Below, piece by piece: positions 2,638 through 7,486 of a stretch of DNA of 64,000 nt; position 1 is the first letter of the stretch, and the number at the start of each line of letters is the position of its first letter. Made by a program: the position numbers and the translations under genes. The notes under the pieces were generated by a model. The model was given only the letters and a program-made list of their open reading frames with translations. It ran no database searches and was not told the origin of the DNA. Origin of the DNA: an uncultured Bacteroidales bacterium (lineage in GTDB: Bacteria; Bacteroidota; Bacteroidia; Bacteroidales; Paludibacteraceae); contig CACZZL010000012.1 of the NCBI GenBank assembly GCA_902785605.1, forward strand, positions 27,971 through 91,970, in the 5' to 3' direction.

Positions 2638-2726
2638 GGAGAGTTGTCTGAGTGGTCGAAAGAGCCGCACTCGAAATGCGGTATACGCATTACGTCGTAT
2701 CGGGGGTTCGAATCCCTCACTCTCCG
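2638..2726 (+). tRNA. tRNA-Ser (anticodon CGA)
   Basis: An 89-nt class II tRNA with a long variable arm. The acceptor GGAGAGT pairs with ACTCTCC. The anticodon stem is CCGCA/TGCGG with loop CTCGAAA, giving anticodon CGA (reads UCG). The T arm is GGGGGTTCGAATCCCTC with its loop. The CCA end is not encoded (GCAA follows). It is complete and is the left border of the two tandem modules; a copy of its 3' end recurs at 5187-5212. Confidence 0.95.
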
Positions 2727-2739
2727 CAAGGTAAATGAA

Positions 2740-2765
2740 AAGGATGTCCATTGACGGGCATCCTT
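2740..2765 (+). terminator. Hairpin terminator after tRNA-Ser
   Basis: AAGGATGTCC pairs with GGGCATCCTT over 10 positions with a 6-nt loop, followed by a pyrimidine-rich tract. It is placed to end the tRNA transcript. The T run is weak. Confidence 0.6.
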
Positions 2766-2853
2766 CTTCATTTATTCGGATAGTGGGGGCCTTCTGCACC
2801 CCCGGTCGGGAGTTCTTAGCTCGGGATAAACCCTCGCACGATTATTACTCATC

Positions 2854-2908
2854 TGCGTTATGCTACATTCCATAATCGTTTTTGACGCTTATGGGTAGCA
2901 TATACGCA
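2854..2908. other. Imperfect 55-nt hairpin in repeat A, resembling an attC-like site (copy 1)
   Basis: TGCGTTATGCTAC (2854-2866) pairs with GTAGCATATACGCA (2895-2908), leaving one extrahelical T. CCATAA (2870-2875) pairs exactly with TTATGG (2889-2894) around a 13-nt loop. ATTAC (2844-2848) and GTAAT (2915-2919) can extend it after a spacer. The layout (two paired boxes, a spacer, a single unpaired base, directly behind the stop codon of a cargo gene) recalls integron attC sites. The classical GTTRRRY core is absent. It could instead be an RNA structure or a terminator. Confidence 0.6.
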
Positions 2909-2930
2909 TATTTCGTAATTTTCGAATCCC

Positions 2931-4007
2931 TCAATGATTATACCGGCGAGAATAGGAGTCTAAAATCTCTTCTCTGTGCTCGCGGGTCCATTTGAGCCAT
3001 CCTTCGTCTCCAAATTCATCGGCAATACTATCGTCCTCGAACTCATCTGCATATCCTGGTATGATGCGGCGGACTGCATTTCTGAAATATACGGAATCCA
3101 AGTGGAAGAAATACATAAAATGCCCTTCATAAAGTATCTCTGCCCCTGCTCCGTCTGACCATGGATACATCCGAATATATGCGTCGCGGAAAAGAGGATT
3201 GTATTTTGAACGAGCTATCGCCATGCTGTCGAATACCAAAGACCGAAAGTTACACGGGTAGTTCCATTCATAATCATACACCTCGTATTGTTCCTTGTTT
3301 TGGGGCATAGCTTGTAAAAGTTCCTTGTCTGTGATAGTCTCGTTCCTCATGATCTTTTCATACAAGTTCGCCAAGTAGTTATTATACATCCACTCCTTAA
3401 AATAAGATTTTACAGACCATTGATAATATCTTAACGTGGTGTCTTGGTGCTGCATTTTGACAAACTTACCGCTCTCAATGGAATAGGTTGTTTCTGATAA
3501 TTCAAAGAGCAACGTATCAATAAAATTCCTTCCGGTAATAGGTTCAGCTCTATAGTCCTTTAAGACATATATATCGGAATCGGAGATGGTCAGCAACTGA
3601 TCATTCAATTGATACCCACGTTTGAAATGGTTCCTAATCTTAACAGAATCGCTCAAGCCGATGCCGTATATTTTATCGCATTCAACATCATAAAAGTCTG
3701 ATAGGATGTCCGAGATAGTGGTATCCTGATAATCCACCAAAGCCAAAGTGTAATCGTCTGCATTAAAACTCACCAATACCATCTTATCCGGATAGCGAGA
3801 CCAGCGGACAGAAACGTTTGTTGGCTCAATGGGATCTTCCTCATATTGTTGGTTTAACTGATCCACATATAGCAGAGTAGCCCTTTTAATGCTTTCCAAC
3901 AAGATGCTATCCTCTGCGGTTGTCTTTTCCGTACTCTCTGTTGTCGTGTTTTTGTGACAAGCCGTCAGACAGAGACAGGAAAGGAGTATAATAAATAGCC
4001 GTTTCAT
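2931..4007 (-). CDS. Lipoprotein of unknown function, module 1 cargo
   Basis: A 358-residue protein with a lipoprotein signal (MKRLFIILLSCLCLTAC, lipidated Cys at residue 17) and a charged Ser/Thr-rich linker. The rest is a globular domain rich in aromatic and acidic residues that I do not recognise. It is probably anchored in the outer membrane. Its TGA stop is formed by the last three bases of the 13-bp core at the end of repeat A. It follows the Abi-like gene by 66 nt and would be read from the promoter in repeat B at 4908-4938. Base composition is richer in AT than the housekeeping genes nearby, which fits acquisition. Start: the ATG context (GCCGTTTCAT on the plus strand) is shared with the gene at 5412-6365. 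Confidence 0.75.
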   Translation of the reverse strand: MKRLFIILLSCLCLTACHKNTTTESTEKTTAEDSILLESIKRATLLYVDQLNQQYEEDPIEPTNVSVRWSRYPDKMVLVSFNADDYTLALVDYQDTTISDILSDFYDVECDKIYGIGLSDSVKIRNHFKRGYQLNDQLLTISDSDIYVLKDYRAEPITGRNFIDTLLFELSETTYSIESGKFVKMQHQDTTLRYYQWSVKSYFKEWMYNNYLANLYEKIMRNETITDKELLQAMPQNKEQYEVYDYEWNYPCNFRSLVFDSMAIARSKYNPLFRDAYIRMYPWSDGAGAEILYEGHFMYFFHLDSVYFRNAVRRIIPGYADEFEDDSIADEFGDEGWLKWTREHREEILDSYSRRYNH

Positions 4008-4073
4008 AAATCTGCAATTTTAGAATAATGGTTAATATCCGCCTTTGGTGATGCTTTTGATTATAGATGTTTA

Positions 4074-4766
4074 TTATTTTACTTGATTTATCTTGTTGCA
4101 AACTGCTTGTACATGATCAAGACCGTAGAGTAGCGCGTGGCTATCTATTCCCATCCATGCAAAAAGAGTTTGTATCTTTTGATACTCATTGATGATATAC
4201 GAGGTATCGACCGTTTGTGAAGAGTGTGTAAAACATATTGGCTCATGGTGCGCAATTCGATTGCGTAATGTGTTCACCTTATCCAACTCATTAAAGATAT
4301 ATGTATTGTTACAATTGAACTCTGCAGATGACCTTGGTTTGTTCGGAAATACCTTCAACAAACATTTGCCGCTAGCTCGATACTGCACATTGGCGAACAT
4401 ATACTTCCATGTACCCATATTGAGCGCCGATAGGAGTTTTGAGTGCTTGTATGTGCCATCGTGTAGCAATTTATTATATGCTTTCTGTATTTGTGTGCGC
4501 GACTCTGCCATCTTTGGATCATCAAATATACCGCCAGGCATAATCGCATCACGCAGCCAATCGTTGCCGAATAACGCAACCATTCGTTTGTCGATAGCAT
4601 TGCGGAGCGCAACTTCAAAGCAACTGACAACTGTGAAAACTTCTTGTGAAAGGTGTAAGTTGTTACGATACAGTGTCATGGCCTTGTTTGTATCGCCGTT
4701 GCACGCATCGAGGTATCTTCCCATCCTTTCTGCCGACATTATATCCTCAAAATCGGTATATTTCAT
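4074..4766 (-). CDS. Abi-like (Abi_2/AbiD-AbiF family) abortive-infection protein
   Basis: A 230-residue protein beginning MKYTDFEDIMS. It has the pattern of Abi_2 family phage-defence proteins: an N-terminal MSAERMGRYLDACNGD segment, VVSCFEVALRNAIDKRM, and near the C terminus LRNRIAHHEP. That last motif is an RNxxxH HEPN-type ribonuclease signature. Such proteins are thought to cleave RNA and halt growth after phage infection. I place the start at 4766; an in-frame ATG at 4802 exists but would overlap a plus-strand promoter. It is the first gene of module 1, with a leader of about 130 nt from the repeat-B promoter. It is richer in AT than the flanking chromosome. Family assignment is from motifs only. 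Confidence 0.75.
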   Translation of the reverse strand: MKYTDFEDIMSAERMGRYLDACNGDTNKAMTLYRNNLHLSQEVFTVVSCFEVALRNAIDKRMVALFGNDWLRDAIMPGGIFDDPKMAESRTQIQKAYNKLLHDGTYKHSKLLSALNMGTWKYMFANVQYRASGKCLLKVFPNKPRSSAEFNCNNTYIFNELDKVNTLRNRIAHHEPICFTHSSQTVDTSYIINEYQKIQTLFAWMGIDSHALLYGLDHVQAVCNKINQVK

Positions 4767-4794
4767 AAAAAATGTAATTTTTTTGTCAAAATAT

Positions 4795-4825
4795 TTGCAC
4801 AATTCAAAAAAATGTAGTACTTTTG
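4795..4825 (+). promoter_or_regulatory. Plus-strand promoter inside module 1, similar to the tRNA-Ser promoter
   Basis: TTG at 4795-4797, 20 nt, TACTTTTG at 4818-4825. The region from about 4775 resembles the stretch upstream of tRNA-Ser (about 2457-2510), sharing CAAAATATTTG and TTCAAAAAA blocks. No plus-strand gene follows, only a possible CCCGGTAGT/ACTATCGGG stem spanning about 4835-4869. Confidence 0.55.
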
Positions 4826-4860
4826 CATCGGAATTCCCGGTAGTCCCTGACGCAAGTCAA

Positions 4861-5038
4861 ACTATCGGGTGTCGTTTTAATAGTACCCTTGCGTTCAAAA
4901 TCGGTCGCAAAGGTACTACTTTTTTCTGACATACACAAGAATTTTATCATTTTTATCGGCCTTCATTTCATCATTAGAAAGTTTTTGGAAAATAGTTGGA
5001 AAAACTATATATCATTTTTATTAGAAAAAAGTTGATTC
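4861..5038. repeat. Repeat B, copy 1 (promoter end of module 1)
   Basis: A 178-bp block with the same length as 6804-6981. By eye it differs at only four positions, and the last 99 bp are identical. It carries a minus-strand promoter that overlaps the inverted repeat TAGTACCCTTGCG/CGCAAAGGTACTA. No coding potential. Confidence 0.92.
4908..4938 (-). promoter_or_regulatory. Minus-strand promoter in repeat B, copy 1
   Basis: On the minus strand, TTG (4936-4938), 20 nt, TACCTTTG (4908-4915). It points at the Abi-like gene. The -7 box sits in one arm of the inverted repeat 4881-4893/4906-4918, so a repressor or an RNA hairpin at the transcript start is possible. Confidence 0.75.
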
Positions 5039-5186
5039 AAGATTTTTTTGTACCTTTGCATAGTTTTTCCAAGTGAAGAAAAACGGGTAAAAATCGGGTA
5101 AAGCCGGTTTAAATATCCTCAAAATTTGATTTATTAATCCGCTGTATAAGGCAGGAAAAGACACTGTAACAAGCATTTGCGTGTTT
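5039..5186. other. Unique 148-bp segment between module 1 and repeat A copy 2
   Basis: Non-coding. It contains a TACCTTTG box on the plus strand at 5051-5058 with no well-spaced -33 element (the nearest TTG, 5032-5034, is 16 nt away). The rest is AT-rich sequence that leads into a tRNA-Ser 3' end. It looks like the remnant of a tRNA locus whose 5' part is gone. Confidence 0.5.
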
Positions 5187-5212
5187 CGGGGGTTCGAATC
5201 CCTCACTCTCCG
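5187..5212 (+). pseudogene. tRNA-Ser 3' fragment (T arm and acceptor strand)
   Basis: CGGGGGTTCGAATCCC and CTCACTCTCCG repeat the T arm and 3' acceptor strand of tRNA-Ser at 2701-2726 exactly. The 5' half and anticodon arm are missing. Such a fragment is what an element leaves when it integrates at a tRNA 3' end. Confidence 0.85.
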
Positions 5213-5225
5213 CAGGGTAAATGAA

Positions 5226-5251
5226 AAGGATGTCCATTGACGGGCATCCTT
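5226..5251 (+). terminator. Copy of the tRNA-Ser terminator hairpin
   Basis: AAGGATGTCC/GGGCATCCTT stem, same as at 2740-2765. On the minus strand it lies downstream of the module 2 genes and could end their transcript. Confidence 0.5.
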
Positions 5252-5334
5252 CTTCATTTATTTGGATAGTGGGGGCCTTCTATTCCCCCGATCGGGAGTT
5301 CTCCGCCGCTTCGCTCTGTCGATTATTACTCATC

Positions 5335-5389
5335 TGCGTTATGCTACATTCCATAATCGTTTTTGACGCTTATGGGTAGCATATACGCA
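5335..5389. other. Imperfect 55-nt hairpin in repeat A, attC-like (copy 2)
   Basis: Identical in layout to 2854-2908: TGCGTTATGCTAC against GTAGCATATACGCA with one unpaired T, and CCATAA against TTATGG. It ends 12 bp before the second core, where the cargo gene stops. Confidence 0.6.
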
Positions 5390-5411
5390 TATTTCATAAT
5401 TTTCGAATCCC

Positions 5412-6365
5412 TCACTCAATCCAACTACTGACCTCTATAAACTCATTGGAATGAGTTGGTATAAAAATGCTTTTCCCGGAGCACCAGGAATCGCGCAAAG
5501 AAATGTAAGTTCCATTATTATAAATGAATATCTTGTATATAATGGGCATCGTTTCCAAATGCCAGTAACCGCCCCAATGACCATAATTGATTTCCATATA
5601 TTGAGCTACTTTGCCTGCATTCTTGCGATTTATCTCATTGGAAGTCGGGACACCTCCCAGGTAGGTTGATAATGCTTCTTCCTGTTTCATGAAAAGATAC
5701 AAAACAGGATTTTTAACATTTAAATGCGGTATGTAAGTCGAATCTACAGAAATAATAAAAGAACTATCTTTTTTAATATCTAGCATTGAACGATAGTTTT
5801 TTTCGTCAAAATCCGCATTCAGGATGGTTACCGGTACATATTTGGGCAGAACAATATATGGATGAGTTGTTCTATTTGAATAATGCAAGAAAACTTGTTG
5901 GAATACACTATCAATGGTAGCATTACTATGCAGACTATGAAATCTTGCAAACTCCTCTGATTGTTTGTGCCATTGATAAAAGAAAGTATCAGAAAGTAAT
6001 GAAGGTGAGCAACCGGTTACAATCACATCATCCCAACAGTTATCATACCGTAACTTGAGTGTGATGTCATATTTTTGTAAAGGTTCGTCTGTGAGATATA
6101 TTGTATCCGGAAAACAGCAAATATATGAAACTACCAGATATTTTACATTTTGAGAACGCTGCGTCACTAAGTAGAATTTACCATCATAATCGGAAACAGT
6201 CCCCCAGGAAAGCTCATTACCAATACTTTCATGTGCTTTGATATAGGCACTGATGATAGGTTCTCCTTGTTCATCAGTGATAGTACCAACAATGCGGATA
6301 GTATCTGATGCTTGCGCTGTGAGATGACAACAACCAATAAGCAATATGTACAATAGCCGTTTCAT
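5412..6365 (-). CDS. Exported protein with carboxypeptidase-regulatory-like domain, module 2 cargo
   Basis: A 317-residue protein with a signal peptide (MKRLLYILLIGCCHLTAQA, cleavage near residue 19). Residues about 23-105 match the CarboxypepD_reg-like beta-sandwich common in Bacteroidota envelope proteins (IVGTITDEQGEPIISAYIK, then VSDYDGKF). The remaining 200 residues are not recognised. No TonB-dependent barrel follows, so this is not a SusC protein. It lies 22 nt downstream of the small lipoprotein gene and shares its repeat-B promoter. The stop codon coincides with the end of the repeat-A core, as in module 1. AT-rich. Confidence 0.75.
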   Translation of the reverse strand: MKRLLYILLIGCCHLTAQASDTIRIVGTITDEQGEPIISAYIKAHESIGNELSWGTVSDYDGKFYLVTQRSQNVKYLVVSYICCFPDTIYLTDEPLQKYDITLKLRYDNCWDDVIVTGCSPSLLSDTFFYQWHKQSEEFARFHSLHSNATIDSVFQQVFLHYSNRTTHPYIVLPKYVPVTILNADFDEKNYRSMLDIKKDSSFIISVDSTYIPHLNVKNPVLYLFMKQEEALSTYLGGVPTSNEINRKNAGKVAQYMEINYGHWGGYWHLETMPIIYKIFIYNNGTYISLRDSWCSGKSIFIPTHSNEFIEVSSWIE

Positions 6366-6387
6366 ATATCATGTATATTCAATGTGA

Positions 6388-6798
6388 TTATAAACCGGTT
6401 CTAAACAACATTAAACCCAACCAATTTGTCGTAGTTAACGGGAGGGTACTTCGATAGGGAGAATTATCATTATGTTTCTTATACAAGGTATCAGATTGCG
6501 AACTAAACCATAATGAATCTTGATACACAAAGGGTGCTTCATTATAATAGCGGATTTCCGGATGCATTTCAGAATCCAATTCAGTTATCGTAATAGATAC
6601 TTGAGGGAAATTACAGATATATGTTCCTCTAATGTGTTCACGCCAGAAGAATTCGTATATGTCCACCGAGCCGTCATTATGAAAAATAAACGCACAGCCG
6701 TCGTCGTCATCGTATACGTAATAGCGATCTACATAAGGTGGTTTTGAACATGATGCCACAAGGCAAATAACAGATAATAAGAAAATAAACCGTTTCAT
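6388..6798 (-). CDS. Small lipoprotein, module 2 cargo
   Basis: A 136-residue protein with a lipoprotein signal (MKRFIFLLSVICLVASC, Cys at residue 17) and a short acidic Tyr/Asp patch (YYVYDDDDG). The rest is a beta-rich domain of unknown function. It is the first gene after the repeat-B promoter at 6851-6881, with a leader of about 50 nt. The start MKRFIFLL resembles those of the genes at 6365 and 4007, so module genes share similar signal peptides. Confidence 0.7.
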   Translation of the reverse strand: MKRFIFLLSVICLVASCSKPPYVDRYYVYDDDDGCAFIFHNDGSVDIYEFFWREHIRGTYICNFPQVSITITELDSEMHPEIRYYNEAPFVYQDSLWFSSQSDTLYKKHNDNSPYRSTLPLTTTNWLGLMLFRTGL

Positions 6799-6803
6799 AT
6801 ATA

Positions 6804-6981
6804 ACTATCGGGTGTCGTTTTTATAGTACCCTTGCGTTCAAATTCGGTCGCAAAGGTACTACTTTTTTCTGACATATGCAAGAATTTTATCATTTTTATC
6901 GGCCTTCATTTCATCATTAGAAAGTTTTTGGAAAATAGTTGGAAAAACTATATATCATTTTTATTAGAAAAAAGTTGATTC
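6804..6981. repeat. Repeat B, copy 2 (promoter end of module 2)
   Basis: A 178-bp copy of 4861-5038 with about four substitutions. Its right edge (GTTGATTC) falls inside the coding frame of the nitroreductase that follows. This marks it as the boundary of the inserted DNA. Confidence 0.92.
6851..6881 (-). promoter_or_regulatory. Minus-strand promoter in repeat B, copy 2
   Basis: On the minus strand, TTG (6879-6881), 20 nt, TACCTTTG (6851-6858). It reads into the module 2 genes. The flanking inverted repeat (6824-6836/6849-6861) is kept. Confidence 0.75.
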
Positions 6982-7486
6982 TTTTGAACAATTATGCCAA
7001 AAAAGACGGTCGATACGCAAGTACACCAACCGCCCTGTTGAGCAGGAGAAAATAGACTATATGCTGCGTTGTGCGCTGATGGCGCCGAGCTCCAAACGGA
7101 CCAACCCTTGGGAGTTCATTGTCGTGCGCGACGAGGCGAAACTGCGTCAGATGGCGGGTTGCCGTACGTATGGCAGTCAGATGTTCGACACCGCGATGGC
7201 TGGTATCGTCGTAGCGCTCGACACCAGCCTGAGTGACGCGTGGATGGCGGACGGCGCCATTGCTGCGGAGCACTTGCTGCTGGCAGCTGAAGAGCAGGGC
7301 CTGGGTGCATGCTGGTGCCATGTCTATTGCCGCGAAGCGTCGGAGGAATTGATCAAGAGACTGTGTGATATCCCTGAAGACAAGACCGTGCTTTGCGTCA
7401 TCTCGCTCGGCTACAAGGACGAGGAACGCAAAGACTACGACCTTGCCAAGCTCAAATACGAGAAGATTCATAACGAAAAATATTAA
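6977..7486 (+). CDS. Nitroreductase family protein with lost start codon
   Basis: The frame reads DSFEQLCQKRRSIRKYTNR from 6977, a good match to the N terminus of FMN-dependent nitroreductases, where RRSIRKY binds the FMN phosphate. It continues through APSSKRTNPWEFIVV and ends at 7486. Between the TAG at 6965-6967 and the ATG at 7061 there is no in-frame ATG, GTG or TTG. The repeat-B junction (6981) lies at the expected start, so insertion of module 2 seems to have removed the start codon. Translation from 7061 would give 141 residues without the FMN-binding arginines. It is either inactive or uses a non-standard start. pdxA follows 19 nt downstream. Confidence 0.75.
   Translation, partial: DSFEQLCQKRRSIRKYTNRPVEQEKIDYMLRCALMAPSSKRTNPWEFIVVRDEAKLRQMAGCRTYGSQMFDTAMAGIVVALDTSLSDAWMADGAIAAEHLLLAAEEQGLGACWCHVYCREASEELIKRLCDIPEDKTVLCVISLGYKDEERKDYDLAKLKYEKIHNEKY

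Follow-up and report, generated by a model that had tools for sequence, protein, structure and literature searches.

Organisation of the tRNA-Ser(CGA) locus

Two adjacent modules behind a tRNA-Ser(CGA) gene were examined in a stretch of 64,000 nucleotides, here called the window, from an uncultured gut bacterium of the Paludibacteraceae with relatives in ruminants (contig CACZZL010000012.1 of assembly GCA_902785605.1). The host genome, G000, is a metagenome-assembled genome (MAG) of 2.08 Mb in 28 contigs, 83.5% complete, with the array on contig 12. The comparison set consisted of 178 genomes of the host genus, most of them fragmented and apparently MAGs.

The tRNA-Ser(CGA) gene (2638-2727, plus strand) is intact, and its 3' end is an attB-type attachment core which also borders inserts in relatives. 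The 29-bp core TCGGGGGTTCGAATCCCTCACTCTCCGCA was found at 2700-2728, as the left border of module 1, and again at 5186-5214 between the two modules (both on the plus strand), with all 29 bases identical. Outward from the tRNA gene, module 1 comprises the core, a tail (A), AT-rich cargo, a promoter region (B), a 144-bp spacer and the second core; module 2 follows in the order tail A, other cargo and B, and its right core is missing. Module 1, which is complete and flanked on both sides by the insertion-site repeat, measures about 2.5 kb and carries two genes. The G+C content is 38.5% in 2728-6981, compared with 52.6% to the left (1-2637) and 49.8% to the right (6982-64000). The two copies of B (4860-5038 and 6803-6981) are identical at 175 of 179 positions (98%), and those of A (2697-2933 and 5183-5414) at 215 of 237 aligned columns (91%), differing in the middle. 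A first-pass annotation of the window had described tandem modules with near-identical ends and unrelated, AT-rich cargo, bordered by an intact tRNA-Ser and a cut nitroreductase gene and separated by a copy of the tRNA 3' end; all of this was borne out.

Tail A combines the terminator of the tRNA gene with hairpins specific to the genus. In the first copy, the terminator hairpin and an inverted T-arm remnant (recognised by eye) occupy 2731-2816 and the hairpin of the A core 2839-2933; in the second, the terminator, hairpins and A core (5320-5414) lie within 5217-5414 (all plus strand). The A core ends in a repeated 13-base piece of the tRNA T-arm, TTCGAATCCCTCA, at which the cargo starts abruptly and in which the last cargo gene terminates (stop codon TGA). 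The annotation had read the whole of B as a promoter. This holds by eye for its first half, a promoter and leader common to different cargo (about 4752-4945, minus strand), while the second half (4945-5038) is a phage-type right end that runs on into a spacer which had not been counted (5039-5182). This right end (4945-5182, plus strand) carries CGGGTAA at 5084 and 5095. The second copy of B (6803-6981, minus strand) retains the promoter half and the first part of the right end, without spacer or core. By eye, the first half of B (4803-4945) seems to contain two facing promoters together with a CCCGGTAGT/ACTATCGGG hairpin, and may be a regulatory leader.

All four cargo genes lie on the minus strand. 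Cargo 1 encodes a lipoprotein of 358 aa (2931-4007), with relatives in seven other loci (one partial; a further match in G149 spans 36 residues only), and an Abi_2/HEPN-type protein of 242 aa (4074-4802), with relatives in five other loci (one partial). Cargo 2 encodes a protein of 317 aa (5412-6365), with a 98% identical relative in G139 (L072), and a lipoprotein of 136 aa (6388-6798), with an 85% identical relative in G016 (L077). The earlier description of the 242-aa product as Abi-like was supported by Pfam (Abi_2, E=2.9e-9); the carboxypeptidase-regulatory domain proposed for the 317-aa protein matched CarboxypepD_reg only below the Pfam cut-off. Comparison of cargo 1 with cargo 2 by BLASTP (E<=1) gave just two N-terminal matches of 17-20 residues and one match with E=0.46. 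In agreement with the annotation, no integrase or transposase was recognised among the four cargo proteins (Pfam, PADLOC), and no phage gene was recognised in the modules.

The empty site and the states of the locus in relatives

The genome G034 presents the same site without a module: YitT (79% nucleotide identity to the window), tRNA-Ser(CGA) (96%), 89 bp, and nitroreductase/pdxA (81%). As this site is empty, the segment from 2729 to about 6979 is an insertion. Its right chromosomal border is a nitroreductase gene (6977-7486, plus strand), which is intact beside tRNA-Ser in G034. In the window the open reading frame (ORF) opens only at 7061 though similarity to relatives reaches back to about 6977-6982, so the start of the gene is missing. 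Of the 13 relatives read, several start the gene with ATG-GA(T/C)-TC; the start in G034 is ATG-GGC-TCT. The window frame joins the end of B at GATTC. The first copy of B runs on as GTTGATTC-AAG, and the nitroreductase gene of G109 starts ATGGATTC-TTTT. To judge from these joints, module 2 probably once extended into a spacer and core, and a deletion at the 5-base homology removed both together with the promoter and start codon of the nitroreductase gene.

States with no, one and two modules at this tRNA-Ser were all found in relatives. G103, whose YitT is the most similar among the loci fetched (99.4% identical in aa), has A, the cargo 1 lipoprotein and the first half of B only, with no spacer. 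In G176, the tRNA gene is followed by the terminator and another gene, with a truncated right end 1.7 kb further on. Tandem right ends are present in G149 and G104. G137 carries an insert of 2312 bp between copies of ATCCCTCACTCTCCGC, a 16-bp repeat, precisely at the site which is empty in G176, and its joined flanks match G176 at 85% over 353 columns; G154 has an insert of 201 bp in the same place, with joined flanks 80% identical. In four loci (L090, L099, L088, L087) the YitT gene pair flanks the tRNA-Ser array on one or both sides in opposite orientation, which suggests inversions between the copies.

The A query matched 176 of the 178 genomes (E<=0.001), many over the tRNA end only; full A cores numbered 26 copies in 23 genomes among the loci fetched. 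At family level it matched 10 of 150 genomes, every one of the host genus. An 18-mer of the A core detected 42 stretches in genome contigs, 22 with the whole A core (24 copies) and 20 without. All 22 are Bacteroidales or Paludibacteraceae records. The named sources were yak, goat, roe deer and reindeer, and several records bear RUG numbers, which we take to denote rumen genomes.

The right end is shared with a prophage

In G049, a 46-kb prophage lies between tRNA-Ser(CGA) and an end of the same spacer-core kind. Its genes include those for an integrase, a tape measure protein, an amidase, a terminase, a portal protein, a head maturation protease and a primase; 7 of the 10 proteins tested had PHROG matches and 3 had none. 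The attR of this prophage is 92% identical to the second half of B in the window (60 bp) and 82% identical to the spacer (108 bp), and has the same order of elements: TTGGAAAAACTATATATCA, a GTACCTTTGCA promoter (by eye), CGGGTAA-type repeats and GGGGGTTCGAATCCCTCAC. Its left end, attL, has three AATCGGGTAAA repeats (CGGGTAA) behind the tRNA core, and then the integrase gene. An element with an integrase of its own and a matching right end is therefore present at the same tRNA-Ser in a relative.

A 19-mer of the right end was present in 20 copies in 16 of the 178 genomes (control 0). Nine of the 20 lead to a tRNA-Ser core, altered in three (G104, G111, G114), and three lead to a tRNA-His core (G038, G100, G138). 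Another three run straight into an A unit (G112, G114, G149), and five are cut off (the second copy in G000, G081, G104, G149, G176). The left repeats were found in 10 of the 178 genomes (control 0), and 6 of these have an integrase match no more than about 0.8 kb away. In viral contigs, neither the A core, the left repeats nor a relative of the integrase was found; the right-end 19-mer had one match there. Two tandem tRNA-Ser(CGA) genes stand at the left end of the integrase islands in G049, G042 and G052 (L241, L244, L248).

Elements with both phage-type ends and no integrase were found at tRNA-His. In G038, the tRNA-His gene precedes left repeats, genes for an RloB protein and an AAA ATPase, the right end and a second tRNA-His core, the core-to-core distance being 3070 bp. 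The G138 element, which spans about 2.0 kb between its two tRNA-His cores, encodes one FGE-sulfatase-type protein. No phage gene was recognised in either element (Pfam on three of their ORFs), and a search of G038 for the G107 integrase gave no homologue at 1e-12.

Cargo families and their combinations

The annotation had proposed that repeats found only here, or always around the same cargo, would point to a simple local duplication. Both A and B were found elsewhere in the genus around different cargo, and a local duplication was therefore ruled out. Cargo families recur in new combinations, and the same cargo-promoter units were found in several genomes. Other cargo in the genus includes an Rce1-like protein (in a cluster of 7), a DUF4160 protein whose partner weakly resembles DUF2442 (several loci), a beta-lactamase-family serine hydrolase (2 loci; membership of this family is uninformative on drug resistance), an OmpA-domain protein and additional proteins not assigned to any family. 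The cargo of L080 gave one weak Imm11 match, below the cut-off.

Many alignment blocks break exactly at the A core or at the start of B. At 2933 in the window, 10 blocks end and 2 begin, with a few more ending some bases to either side, and 15 blocks start at 6803, the first base of the second copy of B. In G139, the CarboxypepD_reg-type protein, the cargo 1 lipoprotein and Abi_2 stand in a single run, with breakpoints at the position of 2933 in the window and near the start of the CarboxypepD_reg-type gene. The middle part of A copy 1 accompanies the cargo 1 lipoprotein in G103 and also, in a form that differs by a single base, in G131; the G131 form adjoins other cargo in G019, which contradicts a strict link between A and cargo.

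Recombinases in the host and the genus

Only two PF00589 matches were found in G000, both on contigs other than that of the array. The one on contig 11 (318 aa) reads by eye as XerD; the one on contig 16 was not read. On these grounds a dedicated resident recombinase was rejected as a candidate. No homologue of the G107 integrase was detected in G000 at 1e-12. Seven genomes (G041, G042, G049, G052, G056, G107 and, with a partial match, G133) have an integrase match no further than about 0.8 kb from tRNA-Ser(CGA); the integrase of L082 was recognised from ORFs and confirmed by Pfam. Homologues of the G107 integrase were present in 15 of the 23 genomes with a full A core versus 60 of the 155 others (Fisher p=0.023), and in 11 of the 16 genomes with right ends versus 64 of the 162 others (p=0.033), both tests being uncorrected, made on incomplete genomes and ignoring shared ancestry. 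In G056 (L247), a tRNA-His-like fragment was seen by eye between tRNA-Ser (1635-1724) and an integrase match ending at 1208.

Interpretation

With moderate confidence, and from sequence comparison, we read 2729-6979 as two integrative mini-elements without an integrase, arrayed in tandem within the 3' end of tRNA-Ser(CGA) and similar to cis-mobilizable elements (CIMEs) or minimal phage satellites that would use a phage integrase in trans. As the modules have no integrase and one of them ends like a temperate phage, they look like passengers and may depend on a phage enzyme. An integrase supplied by a prophage of other strains or by an infecting phage would excise and insert them through the core and the CGGGTAA repeats. 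The cargo would be transcribed from promoter B toward the tRNA gene, and the hairpins of A may separate the converging transcripts. Part of the cargo appears defence-like (Abi_2/HEPN in the window, RloB with an AAA ATPase in G038); defence-type cargo is known in some phage satellites. In G000 the array itself looks grounded, because module 1 lacks the left CGGGTAA and module 2 the right end.

A wider proposal is offered tentatively. It is possible, if rather doubtful, that throughout the genus cassettes of 2-3 kb, made up of a promoter, one to three genes and phage attachment ends and devoid of an integrase, are carried by the integrases that temperate phages use at tRNA-Ser and tRNA-His. Such cassettes would form arrays, interchangeable and in part directed against phages, at the site where the phages themselves attach, amounting to an integron-like cassette system run by phage integrases. 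If the modules do move, phage integrases would distribute and stack small cassettes, in part of a defence-like type, at the site needed by the phage itself, and the Bacteroidales would have a cassette system without a cassette integrase. Very small mobile elements that escape integrase-based searches could then also be recognised, by a phage end and a tRNA core in the absence of an integrase.

Several observations weigh against the array being one of phage-mobilised mini-elements. The annotation had suggested cassettes mobilised in trans; the homologous ends, exchangeable cargo and absence of a local integrase agree with this, but the movement itself is something that we infer, no excised circle, joint or transfer having been observed. 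CGGGTAA repeats, two of which lie in the spacer, are absent from the left side of module 1, where integrases of this type would be expected to need them in attP. The right end of G049 and the similar end in G042 are without promoter-B cargo. The association of the integrase with A cores and right ends is modest, and in 8 of the 23 genomes with a full A core, including G000, G103 and G019, the G107 integrase has no homologue at 1e-12. The flanks compared between G137 and G176 belong to different species. Some junctions between cargo, for example in G139, fall at short homologies inside the cargo and so fit ordinary recombination.

The modules might instead be what remains of tandem tRNA-Ser prophages that decayed in succession, with accessory genes near the right end and no small mobile unit. 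The right end is indeed of the phage attR type, 5 of the 20 right ends are truncated, and the left end of module 1 is not phage-like, but the absence of recognised phage genes from the modules and from the G038 and G138 elements (there with Pfam, on three ORFs) speaks against it. The G038 and G138 elements also retain both ends around 3.1 and 2.0 kb, the right ends of G049 and G042 lack promoter-B cargo, and the same cargo-promoter units occur in several genomes; we therefore regard prophage remnants as an unlikely explanation, though one to be taken seriously. Another way to exchange cargo would be a hotspot of homologous recombination, in which transformed or transduced DNA swaps cargo between the conserved tRNA, A and B, the att-like ends being old and inactive. 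This would suit B being 98% identical while A is 91%, the joining of cargo 1 and cargo 2 genes at short homology in G139, and G103, which has the closest YitT among the fetched loci and holds A, one cargo 1 gene and part of B with no spacer. It fits poorly with the many alignment blocks that break exactly at the A core and at the start of B, and with the precise G137/G176 insertion and its 16-bp repeat, and we consider it quite improbable.

The hairpins of A could also be recombination sites in their own right, resembling attC or mobilised by a Y1 transposase. In favour of this, the A core forms a strong, if imperfect, palindrome in which 5 of the 28 predicted pairs are changed on both sides, with a small covariation term (-0.35); short hairpins related to it are scattered through the genus, after TTC and behind the genes for tRNA-Pro, -Thr, -Val and -Ser; and units join at TTC/GAATCC. 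However, G000 has no Y1_Tnp match, 30 Y1_Tnp loci had no hairpin pair (a loose half-pattern gave a single isolated match, in L163), and no integron integrase was recognised, though no IntI model was run. An integron-like or repetitive extragenic palindrome (REP)-like system is accordingly very improbable. Finally, the fragmented assembly, the 98% identity of repeats below 200 bp and the cutting of the nitroreductase gene exactly at the repeat might suggest a misassembly at the 179-bp repeat. Tandems of this kind, in which an end leads to a core or A and then to the next cargo, are present in the assemblies of G149, G112, G114 and G104, and both outer borders agree with the gene order of G034, leaving an artefact a negligible chance.

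Relation to known systems

The annotation knew of no described element with this layout. This did not hold for the kind of element, which is already known, as tandem islands without integration genes at tRNA and tmRNA sites (CIMEs and the ssrA genomic islands of Dehalococcoides) share the logic of accretion at tRNA/tmRNA genes. The size is unusual, as are the derivation of the ends from a phage, the promoter that the modules share and the exchange of cargo that is in part defence-like. No title or abstract opening describing such modules was found in the literature searched, most subscription papers lying outside the search.

Among the systems compared, the Dehalococcoides ssrA islands are the nearest case in print: 15 of 31 lack an integration module and were proposed as possible CIMEs, and like CIMEs they stand in tandem at a single RNA gene, between repeats of the 3' end of that gene (PMC3146451). 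They differ in using a serine recombinase, where the related integrase here is a phage tyrosine integrase, and in comparison with them the complete window module is about 2.5 kb, with two genes headed by the shared promoter B. Phage satellites, which include P4-like elements, phage-inducible chromosomal islands (PICI), their minimalist counterparts (PICMI) and tycheposons, are likewise small integrated elements related to phages (PMC11389934). Those of PMC13376191 measure 7-20 kb and have their own integrase, in contrast to the window modules, which have none, in which no packaging function was seen, and which would depend on a phage only by inference. Clusters of attC sites lacking an integron integrase (CALIN) resemble the array as hairpin-bearing cassette arrays that rely on a recombinase encoded elsewhere (PMC11389934), whereas the sites here are tRNA T-arm cores with CGGGTAA repeats. 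The recombinase-associated (rAID) clusters of Bacteroidales share co-oriented AT-rich genes and conserved intergenic sequences, but are defined by a tyrosine recombinase (PMC12247911); the array has none adjacent, and apart from the weak Imm11 match in L080 the cargo is not of the immunity-gene type. REP elements with a REP-associated tyrosine transposase (RAYT) differ in that no Y1 transposase gene flanked by the hairpins was present in the 30 Y1_Tnp loci.

The A core hairpin and its dispersed relatives

Folded as single-stranded DNA, the A core gave -18.6 kcal/mol (z -6.45), with none of 200 shuffles as good. Other predicted pairs were broken in one or two sequences, and the comparison with the R and L boxes of attC was made by eye. 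In Rfam searches of six loci and the window, tRNA matches alone exceeded the gathering score, and the sub-threshold hits of the window were not credible.

The short hairpin relatives in the genus, which also occur in second T-arm copies behind the tRNA genes named above, are taken by us to be terminators or small repeats. Their origin from a Y1 transposase was unsupported. In G000, hairpin repeats of 40-50 bp of the form TTC/TTATCTCGC..GCTCGAACGATTATTGC..GCAATTTTC are inserted after TTC at contig 1 (113553 and 135418), contig 5 (10992) and contig 17 (16200; L119-L122), and one of these sits in a second T-arm copy behind tRNA-Pro(GGG). Several hairpins stand in tandem, with a period of about 40 bp, behind tRNA-Ser(GCT) in G115 (contig 31, L123, about 720-980). 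Behind several tRNA genes (L135 in G044, contig 36; L120; L068), two further copies of the T-arm come after the terminator, the first inverted and the second direct. The T-arm copies of tRNA-Thr(CGT) form, by eye, a perfect 10-bp palindrome, which is split by a hairpin element.

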